Part shown: positions 2,945-15,259 of the stretch, one piece after another
How the letters are laid out: the number at the start of each line of letters is the position of its first letter
Position numbering within the stretch: the first letter of the stretch is position 1
Source of the DNA: Sulfuricurvum sp.
Lineage (GTDB): Bacteria; Campylobacterota; Campylobacteria; Campylobacterales; Sulfurimonadaceae
Reading direction: 5' to 3'
Assembly (NCBI RefSeq): GCF_028681615.1
Contig: NZ_JAQUHV010000001.1
Location: 62,001 to 126,000, forward strand
DNA: 64,000 nucleotides
Made by a program: the position numbers and the translations under genes
Notes under the pieces: generated by a model
The model's input: only the letters and a program-made list of their open reading frames with translations
Database searches by the model: none
Told to the model about the DNA's origin: nothing

Positions 2945-3719
2945 ATACCACTGAGACTCTCCCATTTTTAACTTCAATCAAACCGCTTAATTCCGCTTCA
3001 AAAATTTCACTCGGAAATTTCACAACAACTTCATCATACGTCGGATTGTTTCGACAATAGGCGATAAACGGTGTATCGTCGATTGCATTTTTTCCTTTTT
3101 GACTCATTCGTGCAACAAACATGTCAAGATCATCGATTGCTGTCGCTTTCCCGTCCGCTAAAAGCTGACGGGTTGCCGCACTTTCACGAAGACGATGAGG
3201 GAGGACATAAATCGGCTTTCCCATTTCCAATGCATATTCAACACTTCGCATACTTCCGCTACCGATATCGGCTTCCGCAACGATCAAAGCATCACCCAAT
3301 GCTACTACGACCTCATTACGTACGACAAAGCTCCACTCACGTGCTGTAAAGCCGGGCTCAAACTGGGTTAGGGTAAGCCCTTCTTGCTCAATCGCTTGTA
3401 TGAGCTTTGCATTAGCATTCGGATAGCGGACATCAATCCCGCTCGGCAAAACGGCTATCGTATTTTCAGCACCTGCACCCTGATGAGCTATTGCGTCGAC
3501 CCCTGCAGCAGCACCGCTGACAATAATCATCCCCGAGAATGCCAGTTTTTTGGATAATTCAAACGTAATCGCTCGTGTATAGGGGTTAGGCCTGCGAGTT
3601 CCCACGATCGAGATCTTGGGGCGGTGAATAAGCCCTAAATCGCCTCTATAATAAAGTTTTTCGGGATAACGCTTCATTGAAGAGAGTTCAGGAATGGAAA
3701 ATGGAATTTCGGTATGCAT
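2943..3719 (-). CDS. dprA: DNA-processing protein DprA
   Basis: DprA binds incoming single-stranded DNA and loads RecA during natural transformation. The Rossmann-like core is clear: IVGTRRPNPYTR near residues 39-50, SGAAAGVDAIAHQGA near 69-83, and GSGSMRSVEYALEMGKPIYVLP near 153-175 (the last two are hallmark DprA stretches). The C-terminal segment from about 215 resembles the short winged-helix tail (FEAELSGLIEVKNGRVSVV). At 258 residues it is compact and lacks the N-terminal SAM domain, as usual in Campylobacterota. Its stop abuts that of sorB. Presence implies, but does not prove, competence. Confidence 0.93.
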   Translation of the reverse strand: MHTEIPFSIPELSSMKRYPEKLYYRGDLGLIHRPKISIVGTRRPNPYTRAITFELSKKLAFSGMIIVSGAAAGVDAIAHQGAGAENTIAVLPSGIDVRYPNANAKLIQAIEQEGLTLTQFEPGFTAREWSFVVRNEVVVALGDALIVAEADIGSGSMRSVEYALEMGKPIYVLPHRLRESAATRQLLADGKATAIDDLDMFVARMSQKGKNAIDDTPFIAYCRNNPTYDEVVVKFPSEIFEAELSGLIEVKNGRVSVV

Positions 3720-13321: not shown

Positions 13322-13846
13322 ATGACAACAGCCACTTCTCTTGATGCCTATCGTTCGCATGAACTCAGTATTCAAATGAAAACCAGCTCCGGTGATACCC
13401 TATCTCTTAATTTTCAAAATACACAATCACTCTCTATGAGCGAAAAAACCTCGGATAGTTCAAAAGAGCAATCGTTCTCTTTTTCATCCATGCAGGCATT
13501 TTCGTTTACTATCGACAGCAACGGTATCACTGCCCAAGATCAAAAAGAGATCAATGCTTTCATGAAAAAAGCACAGCCTTATATTGATAAATTCATGAAA
13601 GAGCTCTCCGATCAAAACCAAACAACCCCGATTAACAAAGTCGCCTCGGATGTTACCAAGCTTATCGGAAACCTCAACAACACGGATCAAAATACGAAGA
13701 ACTATGCCAAAAAAGGGGTAGTTGACCTCTTCGATAACAGTTTAAAGAGTGTCAAATCGGATGAAAAAATGATTAGCGAAGCCCAAAAACTACTTCAAAA
13801 GATTATTGACGGATTTGATAAAACGATGAAAAGTATCTACGCATAA
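13322..13846 (+). CDS. Hypothetical protein, 174 aa
   Basis: Not recognised with confidence. The protein is soluble, lacks a signal peptide, and has a Ser/Gln/Thr-rich first half (for example FQNTQSLSMSEKTSD) followed by a helical second half with many lysines (about 75-174). TAAAGGTAAG precedes the ATG by a good distance for a ribosome site. It faces away from rpmH. Its stop codon forms the first bases of the left 23-bp direct repeat described below. The composition suggests a surface, flagellum-associated or regulatory protein, but nothing here decides between these. Confidence 0.65.
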   Translation: MTTATSLDAYRSHELSIQMKTSSGDTLSLNFQNTQSLSMSEKTSDSSKEQSFSFSSMQAFSFTIDSNGITAQDQKEINAFMKKAQPYIDKFMKELSDQNQTTPINKVASDVTKLIGNLNNTDQNTKNYAKKGVVDLFDNSLKSVKSDEKMISEAQKLLQKIIDGFDKTMKSIYA

Positions 13847-13866
13847 GGTTTTAAAAAATCCCTGAG
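13844..13866. repeat. Left copy of a 23-bp direct repeat flanking the TA patch
   Basis: Identical to 14907-14929 at 22 of 23 positions (one T/C difference at the sixth base). The shared core includes TTTAAAAAATCCCTGAG. This copy starts at the stop codon of the preceding hypothetical gene. Confidence 0.85.
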
Positions 13867-13933
13867 ATTTTGAACAAGAGATAAGTAGGTATATTAAAAT
13901 CAGGTTATCTACTCATTTTACACCTTTTCATGT

Positions 13934-14224
13934 TTAATTTATTGATTTCAAAAATACTATAGATGCCTTATTTTTAACTAAAAAGCTAGCAACCAACGAA
14001 TAATGATCATTCTCATCCGTATATACAGAAACTTCCACAATACACTTTTGATCATCTTGAATTTTTGCCACTTCCAATGGAAATACAAACTTCGTATTCT
14101 TTGGATATTTTTTTGAAATTTTCTGAAACATATCGCTTTTCACAAGAGTAGAAATTGCCTTTTCTTTTACAAGATTTAGATTATTAATTGATACATTATT
14201 GCACTTCATCTCTTGAGTAGGCAT
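13934..14224 (-). CDS. Hypothetical protein, 96 aa
   Basis: A small basic protein with no recognised domain, membrane span or signal peptide. The middle reads as alternating beta-strand-like residues (KCIVEVSVYTDEN, LVASFLVKN). The ATG at 14224 is preceded by GGAA at a workable distance. Base composition is low in GC compared with the flanking housekeeping genes, in keeping with the accessory patch it lies in. It could be a remnant of a larger gene; I cannot tell. Low to moderate confidence that it is expressed. Confidence 0.45.
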   Translation of the reverse strand: MPTQEMKCNNVSINNLNLVKEKAISTLVKSDMFQKISKKYPKNTKFVFPLEVAKIQDDQKCIVEVSVYTDENDHYSLVASFLVKNKASIVFLKSIN

Positions 14225-14385
14225 TTATTGTTCCGCATGTAGAGACAAAAAACTCATAAGTAGAAATAAGTTTCTTGGTATCCATAAATATTTCACGTCA
14301 TCTTCCTAATCACAATCCAATTATTCATATATATAACCCTCTATCTTGTGTTACTAAACTTATCCTTTTGAATGAGAAAGTTAAG

Positions 14386-14674
14386 CTAATTAAAATATCG
14401 CATCGCTTGATGAAGTACCCTAATAATGGATACTTTCGTATCAGTTACGCGGTAAATCACAATATAAGGGAAGCGGCGCATGATATATTCACGCGTTCCT
14501 GCTTTTTTTCCTTCTCGGTAGTTTAGAGGATTTTTGAGGATTCTATTCGTAGCGTTTTTGATTGAGAAGAGTGCTTGTTCTGCGATAAAGGGGGATGCTT
14601 CAGAAGCGTAAAATAGCTATTTTTTGTCGGTCGGCTTGAGAGCGTCGCGACCATTCAAGCTGCCGTTGTTCCAT
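14386..14674 (-). pseudogene. ParE/RelE-type toxin gene with a frameshift
   Basis: From the ATG at 14674 (overlapping the antitoxin end by 20 bases) the frame reads MEQRQLEWSRRSQADRQKIA and hits TGA at 14600-14602. In the frame one base over, the coding continues without a break from about 14617: LFYASEASPFIAEQALF, then a helix, REYIMRRFPYIVIYRV and VSIIRVLHQAMRYFN, ending TAG at 14386. Together these are a complete ParE-like protein of about 95 residues, with the C-terminal YRV...RVLHQA strands typical of the family. One inserted base or two lost bases near AATAGCTATTTT explains the break. A sequencing error there would restore an active toxin. Confidence 0.8.
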
Positions 14675-14837
14675 GCTTTTTGTGTAGTGTTTCCATAAAT
14701 ATCTTCATCTGTTCTTCGGCTTCAGCATCACTGAGAACATTACCGTTCTCAATATCTGCTAAACCTTTCTCTACTTCGGCGATATACCACGCATCGTAAG
14801 CGGCTTGTTGATCTATTTGTTCAATTTTTTCGCTCAT
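14655..14837 (-). CDS. Antitoxin of a ParDE/RelBE-like module
   Basis: A 60-residue acidic protein preceding and overlapping a ParE-like toxin frame, the usual antitoxin-first order. It has the pattern AYDAWYIAEVEKGLADIENGN seen in short antitoxins paired with ParE-like toxins. GGAGCC-type sequence (AAAGGAGCCTGCA on the minus strand) precedes the ATG. With the toxin frame broken, the antitoxin alone may still be made and could act on related toxins elsewhere. Family placement is from pattern only; no DNA-binding domain is obvious. Confidence 0.7.
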   Translation of the reverse strand: MSEKIEQIDQQAAYDAWYIAEVEKGLADIENGNVLSDAEAEEQMKIFMETLHKKHGTTAA

Positions 14838-14905
14838 TGCAGGCTCCTTTTCGAGGTTTAATGATGATATTTTAACACGAATTTTGTCAAATAAAGATTA
14901 GACGA

Positions 14906-15259
14906 CTAAGGCTTTAAAAAATCCCTGAGCATAGGCTGATTCGATTGCCCTTTGGGTGCCAAATCAATTTGGACGGAGGGTTTAAGCTTCATATGACAAT
15001 CGCGGCATTCGCGTATCACAGCGTGTTCCGCTACTCTCGCTCCTTCGATTTTTGCGATCGGATGACACGCAAAACAATCGCTTCCGCAATCACCCATTTT
15101 GGCAGGATCCGCACTGTGGCATTTGATACACGTCGTCATCGGTTTGTGCCGTTTGTCGGTATCAATATTTTTAAGCAATGCGGGATGACAGGTCATACAA
15201 TCCCCTGTACATCCCCAAAGCGGTAATAATAGTATAAAGAGAAGCGCGATCGTTTTCAT
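14906..15259 (-). CDS. Tetraheme c-type cytochrome lipoprotein
   Basis: A small envelope electron carrier. The signal peptide ends in a lipobox (LPLWGC, lipidated Cys17). Four heme motifs follow: CMTCH (21-25), CIKCH (44-48), CFACH (62-66) and CRDCH (85-89), with extra histidines such as His38 and His79 available as axial ligands. The arrangement resembles the class III or NapC/NrfH-type multiheme folds, though the family is not certain. 117 residues. Its last codons lie in the right direct repeat. It lies 7 bases beyond the end of clpB on the same strand, so it may be read through from clpB. Confidence 0.8.
   Translation of the reverse strand: MKTIALLFILLLPLWGCTGDCMTCHPALLKNIDTDKRHKPMTTCIKCHSADPAKMGDCGSDCFACHPIAKIEGARVAEHAVIRECRDCHMKLKPSVQIDLAPKGQSNQPMLRDFLKP
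14907..14929. repeat. Right copy of the 23-bp direct repeat
   Basis: Matches 13844-13866 at 22 of 23 positions, in the same orientation. It covers the stop codon and last seven codons (LRDFLKP) of the tetraheme cytochrome gene. Confidence 0.85.

Follow-up and report, generated by a model that had tools for sequence, protein, structure and literature searches.

Both homology-facilitated illegitimate recombination (HFIR) and single-crossover integration with duplication of the homologous end have been documented experimentally (PMC3240628). In E. coli experiments, single-crossover entry of a circularised fragment duplicated 109-950 bp of the homologous end (PMC3240628). Small variable segments of bacterial genomes are flanked by direct repeats in 10-18% of cases, mostly ascribed to illegitimate recombination (PMC2884548), and in V. 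cholerae the T6SS effector-immunity modules are swapped at one locus via conserved flanks (PMC5361080).

Here, we describe a locus of a Sulfuricurvum genome in which a toxin-antitoxin (TA) module lies between two copies of the 3' end of a cytochrome gene. The locus is part of a 64,000-nucleotide stretch of DNA (the window), and was used as query against 41 genomes of the genus, in which the window genome is G000. On the best reading, a composite fragment was inserted recently, and in this lineage only, at positions 13867-14906 between two convergent genes. The fragment was probably acquired by recombination between strains, anchored at the cytochrome 3' end and joined illegitimately at its other end.

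Repeat pair and ancestral junction

The features of the locus are listed below in order of position.

13322..13846, + strand: left flanking gene (ORF), 174 aa, no family assigned; weak TelA-like Pfam match below cut-off
13844..13866, + strand: left copy of the 23-bp duplication, the native cytochrome 3' end, no longer coding and with the TAA that stops the left gene
13867..14386, no strand: left half of the insert, 28.5% GC, missing from the insertions of G012 and G006
13934..14224, - strand: 96-aa ORF, decayed copy of a secreted-protein gene with homologues in G026 and G000
14386..14674, - strand: ParE/RelE-type toxin pseudogene, frameshifted by a 2-nt deletion relative to the intact gene of G006
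14387..14890, - strand: TA module, present at the same locus in G012 (86.6%) and G006 (84.9%)
14655..14837, - strand: intact 60-aa antitoxin, weakly similar to the RelB type but under the family cut-offs
14906..15259, - strand: right flanking gene (ORF and Pfam), 117-aa multihaem c-type cytochrome (Cytochrome_C7-like)
14907..14929, + strand: right copy of the 23-bp duplication, covering the final seven cytochrome codons and most of the stop

The two copies, TAAGGTTTTAAAAAATCCCTGAG (13844-13866) and TAAGGCTTTAAAAAATCCCTGAG (14907-14929), lie on the same strand, differ by one mismatch and start 1063 bases apart. The preliminary description had reported near-identical repeats with these positions and this orientation, and had taken the right copy for the cytochrome 3' end and the left for a repeat of its last codons; we confirm both. 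It had also proposed a genome-wide search for the 23-mer, which we carried out: with up to three mismatches allowed, only this pair was found in the 2.66-Mb genome, and the reversed 23-mer used as a control had no matches in the same scan. When the cytochrome end was aligned locally with the left region, the score was 41, compared with a maximum of 25 in shuffles. A chance repeat is ruled out by this score, by the uniqueness scan and by the single-copy empty sites of related genomes. The single difference between the copies falls on a synonymous codon third position; it is one site and proves nothing.

In most members of the genus, locus comparison showed that the left gene adjoins the cytochrome gene. 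Eighteen of the 41 Sulfuricurvum genomes contain both flanks, one repeat copy and nothing inside, and the junction between fixed points is 127 nt in all of them; the empty site with a single repeat copy for which the preliminary description had suggested looking in relatives thus exists. The nearest empty-site genome is G024, the sister of G000 on the clpB tree, in which the flanking matches overlap by exactly 23 bp. Given that the flanks are single-copy and empty in 18 genomes and overlap by 23 bp in G024, 13867-14906 is an insertion; its 1040 bp arrived together with a duplication of 23 bp. At the empty site, two convergent genes form a pair whose stops overlap in a 4-nt palindrome or near-palindrome (GC-TTAA-GG, with variants including GCCTAAGG and GCTTAGGG), and this pair is the ancestral arrangement. 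Owing to the duplication of the 23-bp end, neither gene of G000 has lost its stop.

Where stops overlap in this way, both genes can stay intact only if the insertion duplicates the shared stop, at the least, or replaces it. Surviving insertions will thus tend to look like attachment sites, and this bias may explain the exact coincidence of the repeat ends with the gene end.

Contents of the insert

The insert is a composite of two unrelated pieces, each of them damaged. Its TA half has a GC content of 39.8% and its left half one of 28.5%, both below the 46.2% of the window. In the 96-aa ORF of the left half, an in-frame stop separates a signal-peptide remnant (FLLMSFLSLHAEQ, then the stop) from the mature part. 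Intact homologues with signal peptides are found at G026:C6 (128 aa, 62% aa identity) and, within the window genome itself, at G000:C22 (131 aa, 46% aa identity), both in one conserved neighbourhood next to an acyltransferase-type gene. This secreted family of ~130 aa (G000:C22, L087 3995-4390; G026:C6, L088 5491-5877) has no Pfam match above cut-off. A search for known RNA elements found nothing.

When its two frames are rejoined, the toxin matches PF05016 at 1.6e-15, which places the original gene in the ParE/RelE superfamily. The module resembles ParE/RelE type II TA modules in that this profile match spans the whole domain, in that an intact homologue of 96 aa exists in G006, and in that a small upstream gene, the putative cognate antitoxin, overlaps the toxin start. 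It differs from them in the frameshift of its toxin and in an antitoxin that falls below all family cut-offs. Profile searches gave the antitoxin no family assignment above those cut-offs; its 60-aa ORF is conserved, sits in the expected upstream place and is 88% and 82% identical in amino acids to the copies of G012 and G006, respectively. The module of G000 contains no intact ParE/RelE-family toxin, its toxin gene being frameshifted. The 2-nt deletion is common to G000 and G012, and G012 has an early stop as well. A programmed frameshift, for which the UUC-UGA following the shift point in G000 was considered, is ruled out by G012, which lacks that stop yet has the same deletion and the additional early stop. 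The toxin is probably dead, and what function is left may be at most that of an antitoxin without its partner, which could act against related toxins by neutralising them. The AT-rich patch with a TA pair and a small gene that had been described before is indeed AT-rich and has an intact antitoxin; as a pair it fails, its toxin being frameshifted.

The same module in three subclades

The TA module was detected in 3 of the 41 genomes (G000, G012 and G006), at the same locus in all. The carriers belong to three clpB subclades, each with TA-free sisters: G024 for G000, and G017 and G022, and G037, G004 and G011, for the other two. Among 399 genomes of the order, a sample that did not list G006 or G012, no TA match above 35% identity was found except that of G000. 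The nearest toxin relatives outside the genus (68-71% identity) come from MAGs labelled Azonexus and Proteobacteria. Identity of the module across species (84.9-86.6%) exceeds that of the adjacent cytochrome (~77-78%) and of the left gene (76%), even with the toxin part decaying in two of the three carriers.

The scars differ. The duplication is 0-4 nt long in G012, where the module sits cleanly between both genes with at most TTAA on each side, 23 bp in G000 and 81 bp in G006. The clade of G006 lacks the left gene, and its module is preceded by a remnant of the left-gene end (TTTACGCTTAA), a short filler and the 81-bp copy of the cytochrome 3' end; the left breakpoints of G000 and G006 are different. 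Among 39 loci, only G000 and G006, that is, two of the three TA carriers, have a duplicated cytochrome end (~0.004 by chance, our own calculation). In the duplication scan, G018 scored slightly above its shuffles, although the part of the cytochrome gene that matched was a different one.

Ten of the 81 sites, spread over the whole length, differ between the two copies in G006, and 9 of the 10 are codon third positions. For this reason they appear to be alleles of two genomes; such a pattern is not expected of copies that started out the same and of which one was non-coding. Most likely, therefore, they diverged as coding alleles before they were joined. The left copy is native, matching G004, G037 and G011 at three diagnostic sites in the first 12 nt. 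The right copy is of the G012 type at all three sites in the first 12 bp and of the recipient type thereafter, a mosaic of donor and recipient that suggests homologous exchange at one end and illegitimate joining at the other.

Because other members of the genus hold different inserts here, the junction is a generally variable spot rather than a spot for one element. Between the left gene and the cytochrome gene, G005 (L056) has another putative TA pair, with weak matches to BrnT (1.3e-3) and to a CopG-type antitoxin (1.7e-3), and also a long secreted-type gene. At the same junction, G015 (L042) has a 91-nt insertion with a palindromic sequence of the GCCTCGTCGCTACGCTCGCTAGC.. type that resembles a REP-like element. 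A GGDEF/response-regulator gene, named by reading the sequence, not by family search, was seen in G013 and in G014 (second locus). The neighbourhood varies on both sides, with ~3-3.6 kb of extra DNA between the cytochrome gene and clpB in G022 (L053) and G020 (L052).

Probable transfer between strains anchored at the cytochrome end

According to the favoured reading, the donor would have been another Sulfuricurvum strain in which the TA module already lay beside the same cytochrome gene. One end of the fragment would have been anchored by pairing with the conserved cytochrome 3' end, and the other would have been joined illegitimately inside the recipient cytochrome end; in HFIR, this second junction forms without homology, often with 3-10 bp of microhomology. 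Alternatively, the fragment may have closed into a circle and entered by a single crossover inside the recipient cytochrome end. The outcome would be a duplication of 23 bp of the cytochrome end, with functional stops kept in both flanking genes. The comparison does not favour one route over the other; for both, 23 bp is a short length. With comEC and dprA both present in the genome, DNA may plausibly have been taken up by transformation. The dprA gene is located in the window itself (3141-3689; PF02481, 172 bits), ~10 kb from the insertion. Whereas the insertion, its empty site, the duplication, the broken toxin and the recurrence of the module with other scars are observed, we infer the direction of transfer, the recombination route and the uptake by natural transformation.

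Several points count against this reading. A homology of 23 bp is short for RecA-dependent exchange. The mosaic of donor and recipient can be read in G006, whereas the copies of G000 are too short for it, and the left patch joined to the TA module was found in no other genome, so that the composite donor is unseen. Moreover, recipient DNA is deleted in classical HFIR, not duplicated (PMC3240628).

Alternative explanations

Site-specific integration is unlikely. Under this explanation, the cytochrome 3' end would be an attachment site and the 23-mers attL and attR, with a tyrosine recombinase acting in trans on a small non-autonomous element. Such elements typically sit at the 3' end of a gene and restore that end, and the clean, single-copy empty site, the use of one locus three times and the 11 tyrosine-recombinase matches elsewhere in the genome all fit; the constant core does not, as duplications of 0-4, 23 and 81 accompany the same TA module at the same site and the G006 copies differ along their entire 81 bp. 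Scars that vary in this manner for the same cargo and place would not be produced by a fixed-core recombinase or by a transposase. In addition, the genome contains no other copy of the core, the TA module was not found in viral contigs, and none of the three insertions was seen to contain a recombinase. No integrase ORF occurs within 13867-14906, the recombinase matches being confined to the rest of the genome. In a stronger form, in which the cytochrome 3' end is a true attachment-like site and a non-autonomous TA unit with a short copy of the gene end was repeatedly inserted in Sulfuricurvum by a recombinase in trans, we regard it as very unlikely.

It is also quite unlikely that the patch is ancestral and that most relatives lost it precisely, the 23-bp repeats having recombined or slipped. 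Direct repeats do permit an exact deletion that restores both stop codons, and the same cause has been ascribed to repeat-flanked variable segments in other bacteria (PMC2884548). Deletion of a once-common insert through its repeats would likewise give clean empty sites, which tells against transfer between strains, but many independent losses would be needed on the tree. Single-copy sites occur in 18 genomes across the genus, and G012 carries the TA module without the 23-bp repeat. Loss in every empty genome is possible, and far less economical than insertion.

A transposase that made a 23-bp staggered cut for a non-autonomous element would account for an exact 23-bp target-site duplication with one later change. 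We consider it highly improbable: terminal inverted repeats are absent (the score was reached in 30% of shuffles), the genome has no second copy of the element, and in the sibling insertion of G006 the duplication measures 81 bp and its copies have diverged. A length of 23 bp is also long compared with known target duplications.

A conventional two-sided homologous replacement, in which the donor possessed the patch beforehand and supplied the 23-bp left copy as part of its own sequence, is highly improbable too: it would explain the composite insert in one step, and the TA module of G012 does have ordinary flanks on both sides, but it merely shifts the origin of the repeat to the donor, no patch-bearing donor was found among the 41 genus genomes, and the flanks of G000 stay closest to G024 up to both copies.

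An integron cassette was rejected on a simple consensus scan, in which no R'/R'' core pair at 45-150 nt was found on either strand. Phage origin was rejected as well, with no relative of the TA module or the 96-aa ORF in viral contigs, and so was plasmid origin, all plasmid relatives being below 60% identity and the top matches at ~40%.

The preliminary description had proposed a small integrated cassette at a gene 3' end, or alternatively a duplication scar. A foreign insertion at an empty site, as seen in 18 genomes, remains of the first proposal; its mobile character does not, in view of the variable scars and the broken toxin. Its observation that no recombinase lies inside the patch was correct for the ORFs of 13867-14906. 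The suggestion of movement in trans finds no support, given scars of varying length, no terminal inverted repeats or attC-like pair, and a broken toxin. The second proposal came nearer the truth.

Comparison with known systems

Our data point to an event of a known kind, namely ordinary exchange of DNA between strains and not a dedicated mobile cassette. The event also cautions against taking every near-identical pair of direct repeats at the end of a gene for att sites. Small TA modules can reach new genomes without a mobility gene, and they have left a clear trace of it here: one cargo, one locus, three subclades, and a scar that differs in each.

The locus resembles small variable segments of other bacterial genomes, which are short strain-variable inserts without mobility genes (PMC2884548), but the Sulfuricurvum repeat is a duplicated end of the adjacent gene, and its cargo is met again at this locus in other genomes with differing scars. 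HFIR and single-crossover integration, as described in S. pneumoniae, A. baylyi, P. stutzeri and E. coli (PMC3240628), would, on the favoured reading, share with it ~1 kb of foreign DNA with one homologous end, the other end joined without homology, and duplication of part of the homologous end if the fragment first circularises; our case differs in being read from genome comparison alone and in a duplicated segment of only 23 bp. Compared with the effector-immunity insertions of V. cholerae (PMC5361080), the Sulfuricurvum locus has no secretion-system cluster, its cargo is a type II TA module with a probably dead toxin, and its remnant is the end of a cytochrome gene. In both, toxin/immunity-type modules are swapped at one locus via conserved flanks, and the HFIR-like model, the gene-end remnants and the orphan immunity genes described in V. 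cholerae have their likeness here.
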